A stretch of DNA of 33,580 nt from Lachnospiraceae bacterium (GTDB lineage Bacteria; Bacillota; Clostridia; Lachnospirales; Lachnospiraceae). Below are positions 47-21,824 of the stretch, piece by piece. The translations under genes and the position numbers were made by a program. Positions within the stretch are counted from its first letter, which is position 1. The number at the start of each line of letters is the position of its first letter. The notes beneath the pieces were generated by a model that was given only the letters and a program-made list of their open reading frames with translations, did not search any database and had not been told where the DNA came from. The DNA is taken from the NCBI GenBank assembly GCA_017617395.1, contig JAFZWG010000046.1:1-33580 (forward strand). Direction: 5' to 3'.

Positions 47-1204
47 AACGCCAAGATATTCGTTAAACCTGCGGATGGCGTCATCGATCGCGCCCTGCAG
101 CTCGTCCGTCACGGTGACCCCGGGCTCCCACCACCAGTTTTTGATACGGAGCGGCTCGCGGCCGTCATTTTTCTCGGGCTCGAAGCGCGCGACGAAACGG
201 TTCCCGTACAACACGGGCAACACGTAGTAGCCGTACTGGCGCTTCGCGGCCGGCGTATACACTTCCCAGGAATACGAAAAATGAAACAATTCCTCCGTCA
301 CGCCGCGGTCCCAGATGAAGTTGTCAAGCGGCGCAATGAAGTGCGCGACGGGATTTTCCACGCGCTTTTCGAGGTACGGCTCGTCCTCCGCGCGAATGTA
401 AAACGGCTCCTTCGAGCCCTCCACGGACAGTTCGATCAGCTCGCCGTCCGCAACCAGCTCGCGGATGATCTCCTCGCGGGGATGCCGGCTGTACAGAAAA
501 TGCCACAGCCACGCGCCGGTGTTTTTGTTCCACACCATGCCGATGCTGCCGATCCGGCGCTTGACGTACCACCGAAGAAACTCGTGCTCCGACGAAAACG
601 GGTCCGCAGCGCCCAGAATCTCCGGCGTGTACAGCCGCTCCGCCACGTCATACACCTTCTGCGCACGAACTTTCGAGTGGATGCCTAATTTGCCGCTGTG
701 ATAGAGGTAGTCGAGCGCCGCGCTCGAGAGCTTGCCGTGCCCCCAGCGCCCCTTCTCCGCGCGGCCGCCGATGTCGATTTTGTTCGCCGGAAGCGGGCCG
801 TTCGCACGCACATACGAAAGCACCTCGTCGAGGATCTCCAGCGCCTCCGAAGAACCGCGCTTGGCCAAAACGCCGACCAGCTCGTCGGTTGTCGCCTTGC
901 GCACGCGCACCATGCTCGGATAATCCTCCATCAAAATGATCGAGATCACTTTGTCGAAGCCGTCGACCAGAAAGCGCTCCTTGTACAGAAGGTCGGTGAG
1001 GATTTGCGGACGATAGCCCGCAACGCGCGACTGCAGCACGAGATCCGGATTTCTGCCAACAACATTGAGCGGGTCGTATTGAATACAACGCACCCGCTCC
1101 ATAAAACGCTTCGCGCCCTCGCAGCCCTCGAACTGCCCGAAGTCGCCAAGCCCCTGATAATTCACCAAAAAATTCCTGGCCGTCTCGTTGGAAATCTCAC
1201 GCAT
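2..1204 (-). CDS. YcaQ/AlkX-type winged-helix DNA glycosylase
   Basis: A 400-aa member of the HTH_42 family (YcaQ/AlkZ/AlkX), monofunctional glycosylases that excise alkylated bases and unhook interstrand crosslinks. Residues 42-44 read QYD, matching the QxD catalytic motif of the AlkX/YcaQ branch rather than the QxQ of AlkZ. The C-terminal core has the family signature PLDNFIWDR and a Trp-rich KNWWWEPG segment. The ATG at 1204 is chosen because upstream in-frame codons are Arg-rich read-through of the HAD gene's other frame. The start overlaps the HAD stop by 8 bp, with a GGGGG run upstream, so translation is probably coupled. The last ~14 residues (from DDRGTV) are encoded by the REP-like palindrome and are probably not native. 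It is the last gene of a long operon. Confidence 0.85.
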   Translation of the reverse strand: MREISNETARNFLVNYQGLGDFGQFEGCEGAKRFMERVRCIQYDPLNVVGRNPDLVLQSRVAGYRPQILTDLLYKERFLVDGFDKVISIILMEDYPSMVRVRKATTDELVGVLAKRGSSEALEILDEVLSYVRANGPLPANKIDIGGRAEKGRWGHGKLSSAALDYLYHSGKLGIHSKVRAQKVYDVAERLYTPEILGAADPFSSEHEFLRWYVKRRIGSIGMVWNKNTGAWLWHFLYSRHPREEIIRELVADGELIELSVEGSKEPFYIRAEDEPYLEKRVENPVAHFIAPLDNFIWDRGVTEELFHFSYSWEVYTPAAKRQYGYYVLPVLYGNRFVARFEPEKNDGREPLRIKNWWWEPGVTVTDELQGAIDDAIRRFNEYLGVDDRGTVPSCHLGQR

Positions 1205-1958
1205 CGCCAAAACCCCCGAAATCGACAAGCGCAGGGATGTCCGCCGGCGCTTCCGCAAGGAAATCCGCCCCTGCGCCCCGAAGCTCCTCCTCCGGGCCGT
1301 ACCCCCACAAAACGCCGACGCTCGCAAGCCCGTTGGCCTTCGCACCATTCACGTCCTGGTCGCGGTCGCCGATCATCACAAACTCTGCCCTGTCCGCAGC
1401 GCCAAGGCGCGGCAGAAGGTCCGCGATCACGTCCGCCTTTTTGCTGATGCGGCCGTCCATCGTCGCAGCGCCGAAAAAGTCAAAATAATCATAGAGCGAA
1501 AAATGCTCCAGAATCCGCACGGCAAACTCATACGGCTTCGACGTCGCCAGAGCAACCGTCACGCCCGCGCGCCTGAGCGCCGAAAGCATCTCCGGGATGC
1601 CCTCGTAAACCTTGTTCTCAAAGATTCCGCGGTCGCGAAAATACTCGCGGTAATACTCCACCGCCTTCGCCGCCTGCTCCTCCGAGAAGCCGTAATACTT
1701 CCTGAACGAATCCGGAAGCGGCGGGCCGATGAACGGAAACAAAACGCTCCGGTCCTCCACATGAACGCCGAATCGATCAAGCGCATACATGACCGAATTC
1801 GTGATTCCGATCGCCGGGTCGGTCAGTGTGCCGTCGAGGTCGAACAGGAAGTACCGAAACTTCCCGGTTCCACCGTTTGCCCCGCCGATTGATCCGCCGA
1901 TTGCGCCGCCCGCGGTGCTCTGTTCTACAACGGTAGTATCATTTGCCTTCAATAACAT
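1197..1958 (-). CDS. HAD-family phosphatase, phosphoglycolate phosphatase-like
   Basis: A 253-aa cytosolic HAD hydrolase of the Gph/PpaX type. Motif I is DLDGTLT with nucleophile D40 and D42; motif II is T139-S140; motif IV is IGDRDQD with D198 and D202 binding Mg2+. Residues 55-125 form the helical cap. The substrate cannot be read from the sequence; phosphoglycolate, pyrophosphate or a nucleotide are all possible. The start at 1958 is supported by GGGGG and AAGGCGG upstream. It carries an unusual N-terminal extension of about 33 residues that is Gly-rich (GGAIGGSIGG) before the catalytic domain; most family members start within a few residues of motif I. It lies 20 bp after bcp and overlaps the glycosylase gene. 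Confidence 0.88.
   Translation of the reverse strand: MLLKANDTTVVEQSTAGGAIGGSIGGANGGTGKFRYFLFDLDGTLTDPAIGITNSVMYALDRFGVHVEDRSVLFPFIGPPLPDSFRKYYGFSEEQAAKAVEYYREYFRDRGIFENKVYEGIPEMLSALRRAGVTVALATSKPYEFAVRILEHFSLYDYFDFFGAATMDGRISKKADVIADLLPRLGAADRAEFVMIGDRDQDVNGAKANGLASVGVLWGYGPEEELRGAGADFLAEAPADIPALVDFGGFGDA
1882..1905. repeat. 12-bp tandem repeat in HAD gene 5' end
   Basis: CCGCCGATTGAT is followed directly by CCGCCGATTGCG and then CCGCCC. On the coding strand this encodes the Gly-rich GGAIGGSIGG stretch. Slippage at such repeats would explain the N-terminal extension of the phosphatase. Confidence 0.6.
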
Positions 1959-1978
1959 CCGCCTTATCCCCCGATTCT

Positions 1979-2437
1979 TCAGGCATCCACTTCCTTAAGC
2001 ATTTTCTCCGGATCCTCCGCGGCCTTTACCTTGTCGTTGGCGCGGATGATGACGCCGTTTTCGTCGATCAGATAGGTGGTTCGCGCGACGCCCATGGAGA
2101 CTTTGCCGTAGTTTTTCTTCTCCTTCCAGACATCATACGCTTCAAGCACTTTGCGCTCCGGGTCCGAGAGAAGCGTGAACGCAAGGCTGTATTTTTCTTC
2201 GAATTTCTTGTGCGATTCCACGCTGTCCTTGCTGACGCCGAGAACCTCCACGCCCTTCTCCGAAAAATGAGGATACCGCTCCGAGAACCCGCAGGCCTGC
2301 TTCGTACAGCCCGACGTGTTGTCCTTGGGATAAAAATACAAAATGACCTTCTTCCCGCGGTAATCCGCAAGCGAATGCATGGTTCCGTTCTGGTCCGGCA
2401 GCGTAAAGTCCGGTGCCTTGGTTCCGACTTCCAACAT
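1979..2437 (-). CDS. bcp: Thiol peroxidase Bcp (peroxiredoxin)
   Basis: A 152-aa AhpC/TSA-family peroxiredoxin of the Bcp/PrxQ group. It reduces hydrogen peroxide and organic hydroperoxides in the cytosol with thioredoxin as electron donor. The thioredoxin fold begins with GTKAPDFTLPDQNG. The peroxidatic cysteine is C44 in TSGCTKQAC and the resolving cysteine is C49, the five-residue spacing of atypical 2-Cys Bcp. Length is normal for the family. An RBS (GGGAGG) lies about 9 nt before the ATG. It follows the SUFU-domain gene after a 71-bp gap, the largest in this operon, and precedes the HAD gene by 20 bp. Confidence 0.95.
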   Translation of the reverse strand: MLEVGTKAPDFTLPDQNGTMHSLADYRGKKVILYFYPKDNTSGCTKQACGFSERYPHFSEKGVEVLGVSKDSVESHKKFEEKYSLAFTLLSDPERKVLEAYDVWKEKKNYGKVSMGVARTTYLIDENGVIIRANDKVKAAEDPEKMLKEVDA

Positions 2438-2508
2438 GAATTTCAGCCTCCCGCAAACTCATTTGACCTACAATACCATTTCGACTGCTCCCGCAAGAAG
2501 CCGAAAGT

Positions 2509-3195
2509 CTAAACAATCGACGCTCTCTTCCAGTCGGTCACGTCCGTGCCGAGCTTTTCGTAGATCTCCGCCACGGAATCATGCGACTTCAGAGTCTTAA
2601 GCTCCGCATCCGTCATGCCGACGAGCTCGCGGAATTCGACGCGGCCGTTGAAGGTCTCCAGAGTCTCGACGGTCGGGTCCTTGACCACGATAAAGCCCGT
2701 GAGCAGCGACTGCTGCTTCGAGTCCATGCCCGCGGTCTGGCCGGTGTAGATGAACTCGTTCGGGAAGAAGCACTCATTTTTCGTGAACGTGATTCTCGCC
2801 ACCGTCTGCAGGATGCTGCAGATGTTGCGGATCTCGGCCTCAGGGTCCTCGAGCCCTTCCTTCTTAAGCTTCAAGGTCATCTCGTAACCGTAGCCGCTCA
2901 GCTCGGTGTTTCGGCTCTGCTTGTCGTAGAGCTCGGTCAGGCCGAACGTGACAAAGTGATAAAAATCACCGCCGTCGTAGATGCTGATGCCGTCCAGCGG
3001 ATCGTTGCCGCCGAACACCCATTTGACCAGCGTTCCGTAGTGCTTCGGCTCGGTCTGGCCCGGGTAGACGCGCAAAAATTCTGCCTCGATGGCGTCCCAG
3101 CCAACCGTACCGGGTTCCTTCTCGGTCTCGGGCGGAAGCTCCACCGACACCGGTTTCTCATCCTTTTTCTTCTTGAATCTGTCGAACAATCCCAT
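2509..3195 (-). CDS. Suppressor-of-fused (SUFU) domain protein
   Basis: A 228-aa protein with a Lys-rich N-terminus (FKKKKDEK) followed by a SUFU-like domain from about residue 32: GWDAIEAEFLRVYPG, then HYGTLVKWVFGGNDPLDGISIY, then the FHFVTFGLTELY-like segment. Bacterial SUFU-fold proteins are known mainly as immunity proteins of polymorphic toxins and as uncharacterised housekeeping proteins. No toxin gene or secretion signal is adjacent, so an immunity role is not supported here. It is probably cytosolic. An RBS (GGAGGG) precedes the ATG, and it starts 30 bp after the GrpB gene. Confidence 0.75.
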   Translation of the reverse strand: MGLFDRFKKKKDEKPVSVELPPETEKEPGTVGWDAIEAEFLRVYPGQTEPKHYGTLVKWVFGGNDPLDGISIYDGGDFYHFVTFGLTELYDKQSRNTELSGYGYEMTLKLKKEGLEDPEAEIRNICSILQTVARITFTKNECFFPNEFIYTGQTAGMDSKQQSLLTGFIVVKDPTVETLETFNGRVEFRELVGMTDAELKTLKSHDSVAEIYEKLGTDVTDWKRASIV

Positions 3196-3225
3196 GTTTT
3201 TTCCCTCCTCAATATATGCTCATTG

Positions 3226-18439: not shown

Positions 18440-19711
18440 TCACTCTGCACCGAGCTCGTATCCCGAGCGCACGGTCCACTCGCCGTCGCCCGACTCGCAG
18501 ATCTCCACCATGCGGATGAGTCTGCCGCTCTGATACTCGAAAAATGTATTGTACTTGTGCGTGTCGTCTCCCGTGATCGTCATCACGACGTTTTTAAGGA
18601 GCTCTCCGTCATAGTTCATATCCAGGCGGCAGTACGGGCTTCCCATGGAGATACTGTCGTTATAGTGGTACGCGAGCACCGTCTCCGGATGACCCTCCTC
18701 GCCGAAGATCAGCGCGCGGCTGTCGCCCTTTAAGACGAACTCATACTCCACGACGCGGCTTCCGTCCGAGGACGTTCCCAGGCGCCAGCAATCGTACGGT
18801 GTCGCACCCTCGTCGGTCAGGATAAACTCCTGCACATACACCTGCTTGTCATCGTTGTCGTAGCCGATTGCCACCAGGTTCTGCTCTTCGTTTCTCGGAT
18901 TGATGTACAAGCGCGTGTACGCAATCTCGTTGTAGGTGATGTTCTGGTACAGACGGTTCATGCGGCCGGTCTCAAAGCGGAAGCGCTTCTTGTAGCCGGC
19001 GATTGCCTGTGCACTGTCGTCCGCGGGCTTCGTCACAAGACCGTTGCCCTCGTCGGCATGCTTCTTCCAGTAGTCCGTAAGAATCGACTGATACAGAGAA
19101 ATCCAGTCATCCGCATCGAGCGCGTACAGTCCCGCCGTGACGGACGATGCCGGAATCGCATTGGTCGCAGCCTTGCGGTCCATGTATCCGAAGGTCTTGT
19201 TGCGGTACTGCACCATGTACCATTCCTCGTCGCCGTAGACGCTGTTGTCAAGTCCGATTGCGACAAATTCACCCGCCTGCGCGGTGTCCAGAATCCTCGA
19301 ATCCTCGGTCGGCTCCGCGTAGATGTTGGCCTCGCGGGTCACATACACGATGCCCGTCAGCCGGTACGTTTCTTCGCCGATCGGCGTCGGTGTCGGTGTC
19401 GGCGTCTCCACGGCCTCCGTGGGCGTCGGCTCCGGCTCTTCGGTCGGCGTAGGCGTCGCGGGCTCCGGGGTCGGTGTCGGCGTTTCCGTCGGCGTAGCAG
19501 CCGCCTCTGTCGGTGTCACCACTGCCTCCGTGGGCGTCGGTGTCTCCGGCTCGGGTGTCGACGTTGCGACCTCCGTGGGCGTTGCGGCCTTCTTCGTCGG
19601 CGTCGGCGTCGAATCCTGATCACCGCCTCCTCGCTCGCACGCGGCAGCCAGAACAATCATGGCCGCGCACAAAACAAAGAGGCTCAGCTTGCGAAACAAT
19701 TTCATCTTCAT
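18440..19711 (-). CDS. Thr-Pro-rich lipoprotein with SH3-like domain
   Basis: A 423-aa surface lipoprotein. The signal peptide ends at LAAAC with lipid-attached C25. Residues about 34-110 form a Thr/Pro/Glu-rich linker. Residues about 113-180 look like a bacterial SH3-like domain (VTREANIYAEPTEDSRILDTAQAGEFVAIG...). Residues 190-423 are a beta-rich domain of unknown family. The start is only 6 bp after the RT stop, and its RBS AAGGAG lies beside that stop codon, so the two are probably co-translated, although no functional link is known. The linker DNA (about 19380-19620) is a GTCGGYGTC-type low-complexity repeat. Confidence 0.8.
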   Translation of the reverse strand: MKMKLFRKLSLFVLCAAMIVLAAACERGGGDQDSTPTPTKKAATPTEVATSTPEPETPTPTEAVVTPTEAAATPTETPTPTPEPATPTPTEEPEPTPTEAVETPTPTPTPIGEETYRLTGIVYVTREANIYAEPTEDSRILDTAQAGEFVAIGLDNSVYGDEEWYMVQYRNKTFGYMDRKAATNAIPASSVTAGLYALDADDWISLYQSILTDYWKKHADEGNGLVTKPADDSAQAIAGYKKRFRFETGRMNRLYQNITYNEIAYTRLYINPRNEEQNLVAIGYDNDDKQVYVQEFILTDEGATPYDCWRLGTSSDGSRVVEYEFVLKGDSRALIFGEEGHPETVLAYHYNDSISMGSPYCRLDMNYDGELLKNVVMTITGDDTHKYNTFFEYQSGRLIRMVEICESGDGEWTVRSGYELGAE

Positions 19712-19717
19712 CTCTCC

Positions 19718-20935
19718 TTATCCCACTGAATTTTCCGCTGTTTCGCGCCCGAGATAATACTCGTGCACAAGGCTGCGGAAGCCGTAGTCCTTGATCGTGT
19801 CGTAGCGAAGGCGGTAGTTCGCCTTCGTATGCTTTCCGGTCGCGATGAACCGGATGCAGGAAACCATATAGCGGTCCAGCACACCGAGGCTGTCCGCGGT
19901 TGTAATCACGGGGAAAAACCATCTCGCCCACGTGAGCTCATTTTCGTTGTGATTGTCGTAAAATTTCGCGTTGTAATGCCGGATGTACGCGCGGATCGCG
20001 CGCTCGTCGGACGCGCCGTTTCGGCATTTCCAGCGGTAGAGCTTGCGCGCCTTCCGGCGCATCTTGCCCTTCAGTTTACGCACGGACGCCTCCGAGACAT
20101 CGACCGTGCCGTCGCAGTATGTAACGCCCAGGAAAGTCCACGCCTCGTGCGCCGCGGACGTCGCAACCTTCTTCGGATTGACCGTGAGGCCCTTCTCCGC
20201 GAGGAACGCTTCGATGTATTCCTTATGCTTCGCCAGCTCCTCCCCGGAGTCCGCGAAGACGATGATGTCGTCCGAATAGCGGGCGTACAATACGCCCTCG
20301 TCGTACATGTGATGATCGAGCTCGTTTAAGTACAGATTCGCTAAAAACGAGGACAGCGGAATGCCCGCCATGATGCCCTTTCGGTCCTCCCGGACCTCAC
20401 CCTCGTCGAGGACGTAGGGGTTTGTGAGGATCTCCTCGATCAGGCCGCACAATAGCGGCTCCTCCGCGAGCACCTCGCGGACCATCGGCAGGATCTTCGC
20501 GACGTCGACCGAGTTGAAGTAATCGTGGATGTCAAGCTTGTACGACAGTCTCTCCGCAAGCGCCTGACGCCTCGTCAGGTAAGCCATCGCCTTCTTCACG
20601 CCGCTGTTGACGCGGAACGAAAAAAGGTTCGGCGCAAAGATGTCGTCGTAGCGGTGAAGGTGATATGCGATTGCCTTCATGAGAAGGTTCTCCGCCTCGC
20701 CGAACGTGTACACGACACGCTTTTTGTCGCTGCCCATCTTGTTGATGATGCGGCGGTTTGCGTACGGAAACGTTCCGTTCGCAAGCCACTGTTCCAGCGG
20801 CTCCGCGTACGCCTTCGCGTCGATCAGGCGGCGCATCTGCGACAGCTCGCGCTTCGTCACATGCTCTCGCCCCGCGAAGTACTCGTAGAATCGTTCCCAT
20901 ACATCGGGATCCCGAAGTGTCTGCAGATATTCCAT
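19718..20935 (-). CDS. Stand-alone group II intron-like reverse transcriptase
   Basis: A 405-aa RNA-directed DNA polymerase. Palm motifs: FSFRVNSG (105-112), the first catalytic Asp D135 in KLDIHDYFNS, motif 4 GIMAGIPLSSFLANLYLNELD (from 187), YSDD at 220-223 with D222 and D223, and NPKK at 253-256. The catalytic triad is intact. Residues 285-395 resemble a group II maturase thumb: a basic helix, WARWFFPV, LGVLDRYMVSCIRFIATG. There is no HNH endonuclease and no recognisable intron domain V around it. It lacks the NAxxH and VTG marks of retron RTs. It may belong to the group II-like (G2L) or another unclassified class. The ATG at 20935 has GGGAGGG upstream. It is cotranscribed with an unknown gene before it and a lipoprotein after it. 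Confidence 0.88.
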   Translation of the reverse strand: MEYLQTLRDPDVWERFYEYFAGREHVTKRELSQMRRLIDAKAYAEPLEQWLANGTFPYANRRIINKMGSDKKRVVYTFGEAENLLMKAIAYHLHRYDDIFAPNLFSFRVNSGVKKAMAYLTRRQALAERLSYKLDIHDYFNSVDVAKILPMVREVLAEEPLLCGLIEEILTNPYVLDEGEVREDRKGIMAGIPLSSFLANLYLNELDHHMYDEGVLYARYSDDIIVFADSGEELAKHKEYIEAFLAEKGLTVNPKKVATSAAHEAWTFLGVTYCDGTVDVSEASVRKLKGKMRRKARKLYRWKCRNGASDERAIRAYIRHYNAKFYDNHNENELTWARWFFPVITTADSLGVLDRYMVSCIRFIATGKHTKANYRLRYDTIKDYGFRSLVHEYYLGRETAENSVG

Positions 20936-21015: not shown

Positions 21016-21163
21016 ATGCGTACCCGCCCGGGGGTAGCCCGGGCGGTACTTCGTAATAAAGAGAAGAAATCTTTAAAGTTCGGAAAATTTCCGAACTTAC
21101 CAGGCGATACATGGCCGACTACCTGCAAAGTACCACTGGGACCATGCTGCGCCCGCTGCAGGT
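20967..21163 (-). ncRNA. Candidate structured RNA upstream of the RT gene
   Basis: The 256-bp gap 20936-21191 has no gene but four hairpins. In transcript order they are: ACCTGCA/TGCAGGT (21163-21157 with 21127-21121); a perfect 11-bp palindrome with a 1-nt centre (21098-21076, AAGTTCGGAAA arm); a 12-bp GC-rich stem with one bulged G (21049-21020, GTACC and GCCCGGG); and an 8-bp stem GTGTGGGA/TCTCACAC (21007-21000 with 20977-20970) enclosing CGCGG/CCGCG. The position directly before an RT is where retron- and DRT-type RNAs lie, but that role is inference. Parts recur at 11501-11609. Confidence 0.45.
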
Positions 21164-21191
21164 GCAAAATGCGTTCTTCCCGAATTACCGA

Positions 21192-21710
21192 TCAAAATGC
21201 CAGATTCTCGCGGATTCTGTTCACCACATAATCCTCGTGATCCGGATACTCAATAAAGAAATTGATGTGCTTCAGTCCGGCCTTCCACTCGCAGTACGTG
21301 TGCAGGCCCTTCTCGTACTTATACTTGCTCTGCAGCGAAATCACCAGAGCGATCGCGCCGTTCTTGCGCAGCACGAACGTGTACGGGGAATGAATCCAGC
21401 GGCAGTCCGGAACGAGCGTCTTGAACGGAACGTTCTCCTCTACACTGTACTCCGGAAAATACTTCGCCAGAATCGGGCGGAAGTAGTCGATGCCGTGATT
21501 GTAATCGATGTCCCACTCATTTTCCGGGGACGTGACCTGCTGTGCAACCTGTGCCGCAACCGGAGTGGCAACCGCTCCCGGAGCCGGTGCCGCAGGCTGT
21601 GTCGTCTTCTGGGTCGGGTTCAGCGCAGAGTGAACCGCATCCGTGACAACATCTTCCACTTTGTTCTCGACTTCTCGTCTCAGAATCCTCTTAAGCAACG
21701 ATGACAACAT
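21192..21710 (-). CDS. Hypothetical protein upstream of the RT
   Basis: A 172-aa protein of no recognised family. Residues 1-28 form a charged amphipathic helix (LLKRILRREVENKVEDVV), 30-62 an Ala/Pro/Thr/Gln-rich linker, and 65-172 a compact domain (WDIDYNHGIDYFRPILAKYFPEY ... RKNGAIALVISLQSKYKYEKG ... HINFFIEYPDHEDYVVNRI). The second half has an alternating beta pattern that could be an endonuclease-like fold, but no catalytic motif is certain. The ATG at 21710 has GGAGGG 7 nt upstream; earlier in-frame ATGs have no RBS. It opens the transcript that continues through the RT. Confidence 0.7.
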   Translation of the reverse strand: MLSSLLKRILRREVENKVEDVVTDAVHSALNPTQKTTQPAAPAPGAVATPVAAQVAQQVTSPENEWDIDYNHGIDYFRPILAKYFPEYSVEENVPFKTLVPDCRWIHSPYTFVLRKNGAIALVISLQSKYKYEKGLHTYCEWKAGLKHINFFIEYPDHEDYVVNRIRENLAF

Positions 21711-21795: not shown

Positions 21796-21824
21796 ATTAT
21801 ATCGGTTCTCACAGCCTTTTGCAA
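21796..21824 (-). promoter_or_regulatory. Promoter of the hypothetical-RT-lipoprotein operon
   Basis: Minus-strand TTGCAA (21819-21824), a 17-bp spacer and TATAAT (21796-21801). It lies in the 161-bp gap after copA, which has no clear terminator. Confidence 0.8.

Follow-up and report, generated by a model that had tools for sequence, protein, structure and literature searches.

Within a 33,580-nucleotide stretch of DNA from a Lachnospiraceae bacterium (contig JAFZWG010000046.1, positions 1 to 33,580; hereafter the window), the minus strand encodes a three-part cassette in the order ACC - RT-5 noncoding RNA (ncRNA) - UG26 reverse transcriptase (RT). The RT gene (19718..20935, minus strand) specifies 405 aa from its ATG, with a YSDD active site, a group II-like thumb and a conserved C-terminal block that ends near HEYY. 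Directly 5' of it and on the same strand lies an RT-5 ncRNA of 113 nt (21060..21172, as delimited by R1, an RNA model that we built from 17 RNAs), the core of which (21065-21167) matches Rfam family RF03026, and 5' of the RNA lies the gene for a 172-aa partner protein, ACC (21192..21710, minus strand), which is assigned by PADLOC to RTasCOG2852 and whose start codon was inferred from relatives. The initial annotation of this stretch, made from its letters alone, had recognized an intact RT with a YSDD motif, which proved to be real, but described it as standing alone, having missed both the RNA and ACC.

By its sequence profile, the window RT falls in UG26, one of the catalogued UG/DRT groups of reverse transcriptases (DRT, defence-associated RT). 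The PADLOC model RT_UG26 (PDLC03764) matches it with 536 bits over residues 1-397, as compared with 117 bits for the runner-up general RT model, 110 for UG27 and 99 for UG17, and the same model is matched by all 78 sequences scanned with PADLOC (the window RT and 77 relatives), so that the enzyme does not represent an unnamed class as had earlier been considered. This placement is based on profile scores and fold comparison rather than on phylogeny. NCBIfam scores fall far under their cut-offs for group II intron RTs (TIGR04416, 109 bits; cut-off 300), Drt3a (74 bits; cut-off 200) and retron St85 (59.5 bits; cut-off 235). RVT_1 is the sole Pfam match of the protein, which shows no endonuclease domain by Pfam, and no group II intron RNA or domain V was found by Rfam in the 33.6 kb window. 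The NAxxH and VTG motifs of retrons (motif names as in the earlier note) are absent from the RT translation as judged by eye, and no direct repeat of at least 50 nt, as a sign of template/variable repeats of diversity-generating retroelements, occurs within the window. The earlier picture of an intron-less enzyme of group II-like architecture, devoid of an endonuclease domain and outside both retrons and diversity-generating retroelements, is thus borne out, as is the view of an RT kept by its host, given dN/dS values of 0.045, 0.103 and 0.158 in three pairs that indicate purifying selection. The closest relative, from a Lachnospiraceae metagenome-assembled genome, is 96% identical (L002; L and G numbers denote surveyed loci and genomes), and the window RT is the sole RVT_1 match in its own genome, which is 85% complete. 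A literature search with the terms UG26, RT-5, RF03026, and COG2852 plus reverse transcriptase retrieved no paper on UG26 function, and one on DRT11-DRT14 found nothing relevant; UG26 is catalogued with defence RTs and, as far as we have seen, the RT does not cluster with a characterized RT defence system.

The window RNA scores 81.3 bits with RF03026 (gathering threshold 45.7; E 1e-14), the only Rfam match above gathering score in the window, and an Rfam scan of 16 loci picked from 80 relatives placed RT-5 upstream of the RT in every one of them. Across 81 UG26 loci (the window and 80 others), R1 gave 77 matches, 76 in UG26 loci and the remaining one at a locus that is not UG26 (L090), with two weak matches among the 76 (L043, 26.2 bits; L080, 28.6 bits, partial and 1.3 kb from its ACC). 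Inclusion of two loci where the RNA lies farther along the same contig (L047, L073) brings the total to 78 of the 81; among the three in which no RNA was found, the contig begins less than 100 nt from the RT in L038 and L041, and masked bases run across the RNA in L035, where its 3' half is nonetheless readable. Of the 76 loci, 71 have the RNA on the 5' side of the RT at a distance of 12-235 nt, the exceptions being L080 and L081 (1.4-2.3 kb 5') and L050, L062 and L074 (3' of the RT). We also surveyed genomes of the family and of the order, two sets that share some members: 17 of 150 family genomes contain RT-5, which passes the Rfam cut-off in 16, and the same 17 contain the RT, one pair apparently being split by a contig break (G089). 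R1 gave 18 matches in 392 genomes of the order, where, the window aside, all 17 loci fetched hold an RT matching the UG26 alignment and 12 of them hold ACC. The RT and the RT-5 RNA almost certainly constitute a dedicated unit. A second RT-5 candidate in the genome of the window itself (G000:C13; Rfam 35 bits, R1 26.6) was rejected as a chance match because it lies inside an ABC-transporter-like open reading frame (ORF) and the 9 kb retrieved showed no RT ORF; the weak R1 matches at L080 and L043 have scores close to that of this candidate.

The minimum free energy of the window RNA has a z-score of -2.45, with 3 of 200 shuffles folding equally well. Over 76 distinct rows, 91.4% of the cells in its five helices are paired as compared with 73.8% in shuffles, changes on both sides are seen in 25 of the 28 pairs, and pairing falls to 39.5 and 44.5% when helix partners are slid by one column; P1 is the weakest helix, at 82.6% paired and with its outer pair broken in 42 of the 76 rows. 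Covariation further supports a pseudoknot between a 5' strand (ACCUGCA; 21157..21163, minus strand) and an apical-loop strand (UGCAGGU; 21121..21127, minus strand), in which 99.2% of the cells are paired and six of the seven pairs feature compensatory changes, for columns that were picked from the window sequence. The pseudoknot is missing from the R1 structure and thus did not shape the alignment. It also forms at least six contiguous pairs in 25 of 25 RNAs outside the alignment, some of them identical or close to RNAs already included. The RF03026 consensus in Rfam holds nested pairs only, and the present analysis adds the conserved pseudoknot to them.

An unpaired, hypervariable segment located between P2 and P3, termed J (CCAGUGGU in the window; 21132..21139, minus strand), spans 8-13 nt and takes 56 unique sequences in the 66 rows kept after 11 of 77 were dropped for insertions or weak alignment. 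Its columns carry 0.07-0.63 bits of information, against 1.1-2.0 for the conserved unpaired GUA and UUAA, and on this sequence evidence J is the obvious candidate template. The conserved pyrimidine-rich tail, which together with UUAA follows the P4 hairpin (hairpin at 21076..21098, minus strand), is an alternative candidate. At one locus (L074:5982-6187), additional hairpin-like sequence within the J/P3 arm expands the RT-5 match to a length of 206 nt. On the 3' side of the window RNA, a GC-rich hairpin lacking a U-run is seen by eye at 21020..21049 (minus strand), and terminator-like hairpins, likewise noted by eye, occupy about the same place in several relatives; we infer a terminator role for these hairpins, and a terminator scan returned none 3' of the window RNA.

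ACC features an N-terminal helix, a low-complexity linker and a C-terminal PD-(D/E)XK-like domain, and was found in 66 of the 77 evaluable UG26 loci. The match of the window protein to RTasCOG2852 (PADLOC PDLC03793, listed under DRT) is weak (25.6 bits, E 3.3e-6, residues 14-170); 58 of 62 ACC members match the same model at E 0.01 or better, with a best value of 4.7e-61, and a Ruminococcus-type member (L039) reaches 192 bits. By this profile evidence the window ACC is a divergent member of the RT-associated family RTasCOG2852, and a reading of ACC as an unannotated protein, reached after Pfam, NCBIfam and PDB searches, was dropped because the PADLOC scan gave this family. Foldseek alone returned nothing at E 0.001 for ACC, and PHROGs held no match for the window protein. 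The predicted fold has the alpha-beta-beta-beta-alpha-beta core of the PD-(D/E)XK superfamily, and among the 62 members a D at position 110/111 is found in 5 and an E or D at 125 in 26. ACC is thus predicted to adopt a PD-(D/E)XK fold without its catalytic residues, which sets it apart from Vsr/NGO0050-type PD-(D/E)XK nucleases, as no member keeps both D and E.

Variation among ACC members was also noted. The protein apparently has a C-terminal ACT-like tail at L023:3066-3728 and L032:279-941; Pfam ACT_4 matches two members and RelA/SpoT two, which were assigned to these loci by eye. At the related locus L025, a long and possibly RelA-like ORF (974-3211) terminates a short distance upstream of ACC; the cassette may have inserted close to the end of a relA gene. 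Zinc-ribbon-like N-termini precede the ACC domain in L048, L021 and L077 (by eye; one member has a Pfam zinc ribbon), so that ACC is variable in its N-terminal part but retains the nuclease-like domain.

We favor, on balance, a model where these components form a three-part, DRT-like ribonucleoprotein cassette that copies part of its own ncRNA into DNA, with a plausible anti-phage use. The RT would bind the RT-5 ncRNA as a dedicated scaffold and template, in the manner of the ncRNA-bearing DRT2, DRT9 and DRT10, and would copy a short unpaired stretch of it into single-stranded complementary DNA (cDNA), perhaps repetitive and perhaps protein-primed, while ACC, with its dead nuclease fold, may bind the RNA or the cDNA as a subunit that holds or senses it. 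By analogy with these systems, ncRNA-templated cDNA synthesis by the UG26 RT is quite likely; the window shares with ncRNA-templated DRTs a dedicated structured ncRNA beside the RT, and class 2 DRTs are described as templating on a cis-encoded ncRNA (PMC13174585). The cDNA would then most likely serve anti-phage immunity, because the nearest UG26 relatives by profile include DRTs; taken by itself, we regard this role, drawn by analogy, as evenly balanced.

A parallel in composition exists with DRT10, which consists of a UG17 RT, a SLATT protein and an ncRNA (PMC12632851): both systems have three parts (ncRNA, small protein, RT), an upstream ncRNA and a variable unpaired loop. They differ in the partner, which in the window has an ACC/RTasCOG2852 nuclease-like fold rather than SLATT, in the location of the RNA between ACC and RT, in the lack of a convincing A-B-A' repeat and in the UG group (99 bits for UG17 vs 536 for UG26). 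DRT9 combines a UG28 RT with an ncRNA (PMC12483538); in contrast to DRT9 and DRT2, no conserved poly-U loop was seen in the RT-5 RNA, and the profile families are separate. The DRT families characterized to date produce markedly different DNAs: DRT9 makes poly-dA, DRT10 tandem repeats, DRT3 dinucleotide repeats and DRT2 a de novo gene. The PADLOC RT_UG26 model covers the RT alone, with the adjoining RNA described here; more generally, the RT, the RNA and the partner have been catalogued separately under their own names and are here joined into a defined cassette, to which a pseudoknot and a variable segment as candidate template are added. The link between RT-5, RTasCOG2852 and UG26 may already be present in the 2022 UG/Abi classification or the 2017 RT-motif paper.

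Several observations weigh against this model. ACC is absent from 11 of the 77 evaluable loci. Long insertions near J (L033, L036, L056, L062, L074 and others) and the want of a clear repeat pattern make its role as template less certain. A-B-A' repeats in J, which might point to repeat synthesis of the DRT10 kind, are not claimed: they are weakly enriched in the 56 unique J sequences, for which p values in letter and column shuffles are 0.046 and 0.021 for the longest repeat, 0.057 and 0.018 for repeats of at least 3, and 0.457 and 0.21 for 5'-anchored ones, with 0.275 for J with P3a; they are not enriched in 20 new sequences (0.13 and 0.29), and all 76 pooled give 0.018 and 0.05. Conservation of the neighboring genes, raised as a check in the initial annotation, is evident as stable synteny of the cassette within the clade of the window, where the RT diverges much like the adjoining copper ATPase (RT identities to six relatives with an ATPase match of 95.6, 81.9, 73.8, 63.3, 62.2 and 61.9%; ATPase identities in the same six of 90.3, 74.3, 69.6, 68.9, 69.5 and 71.9%); DapDH, two genes away, is better kept than the RT (92.7-99.4% in four relatives). 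PADLOC revealed no defence island among 105 flanking proteins: 72 models have a match at 1e-10, and the best 25 of these match at most two proteins each and are mostly UvrD/GajB helicase models falling on one protein. RTasHel, a DRT-associated helicase model, is matched by the same helicase-like flanking protein or another, and the best 25 of 161 flanking Pfam families are mostly ordinary. As for mobile elements, among 65 phage records with a match none reached 80% coverage of the RT query, a scan of viral contigs with two peptide patterns found no UG26 relative, and plasmids gave no UG26 match at 1e-30, the plasmid matches listed being mostly group II RTs. A study of cold-seep viruses, however, lists UG26 among their RTs (PMC10504277), which weighs against the absence from viruses found here.

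Among other explanations, the DRT-like cassette has to be set against a housekeeping enzyme, in which an ncRNA-bound RT would act in DNA repair or genome maintenance in the manner of the group II-like G2L4 RTs, for which a function in DNA repair has been proposed. The patchy occurrence of the RT (17 of 150 family genomes), its profile placement in UG26 among the DRTs and the cataloguing of its partner under DRT all speak against such an enzyme, and to our knowledge G2L4 RTs need no dedicated structured ncRNA. We consider this explanation rather unlikely. The window RT differs from group II intron and G2L4 RTs in that neither intron RNA nor an endonuclease domain was found. More doubtful still is a separate and largely vertically kept UG26 machine with a cellular, possibly non-defence purpose, built from a pseudoknotted RNA of telomerase-like layout, a dead-nuclease subunit and the variable segment as template; a variable unpaired segment beside a pseudoknot would then imply that each lineage writes its own short DNA. 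A product outside defence would mean that rumen bacteria put an RNA-bound RT to an unusual cellular use.

The RT-5 RNA could instead be a cis-regulatory leader of the RT mRNA, neither template nor scaffold, as its usual location 5' of the RT and on the strand of that gene would suggest, but the order is RT - ACC - RNA in L050, L062 and L074, the RNA and ACC of L047 and L073 share a contig with the RT but lie kilobases 3' of it, and terminator-like hairpins seen by eye separate RNA and RT in several loci, all of which render a leader improbable. A retron-like element, whose RNA would be an msr-msd copied into RNA-linked multicopy single-stranded DNA (msDNA), finds parallels in the ncRNA upstream of the RT, in the partner protein and in an insertion of ~90 nt in one RNA arm (L074), and appears very improbable. 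The least credible option, to which we give hardly any weight, is that the RT is a group II intron maturase that was domesticated or has decayed, its RNA being a remnant: the 109 bits obtained are far under the TIGR04416 cut-off, the window holds no group II RNA, and RT-5 is a separate conserved RNA family with covariation of its own.

Upstream of ACC, a sigma-70-like promoter (TTGCAA-17-TATAAT; 21796..21824, minus strand) agrees with the consensus at 10 of 12 positions, one such site being found where 0.4 are expected, by consensus match only; it is a possible start of an ACC-RNA-RT transcript. The cassette is flanked by the copper-type ATPase gene and a predicted lipoprotein gene, the latter (18440-19711) just 3' of the RT; its product has a long T/P/E linker and matches SH3 below the threshold. 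The ATG of this gene lies 6 nt past the RT stop, which suggests co-transcription.

In the genomes surveyed (G201, G326, G238 and others), the PADLOC model RT_UG17 matched, at E <1e-40, RTs of which a single genome can hold as many as 8 near-identical copies. These are probably group II introns, and RT_UG17 may need a stricter cut-off as a detector of DRT10. Genome searches for reference DRTs gave nothing for UG27 at 1e-40 or Drt3a at 1e-60, and, among 299 genomes of the phylum, one holds a strong DRT9 match (E 3e-206; G229:C16:4100-5578, L101).
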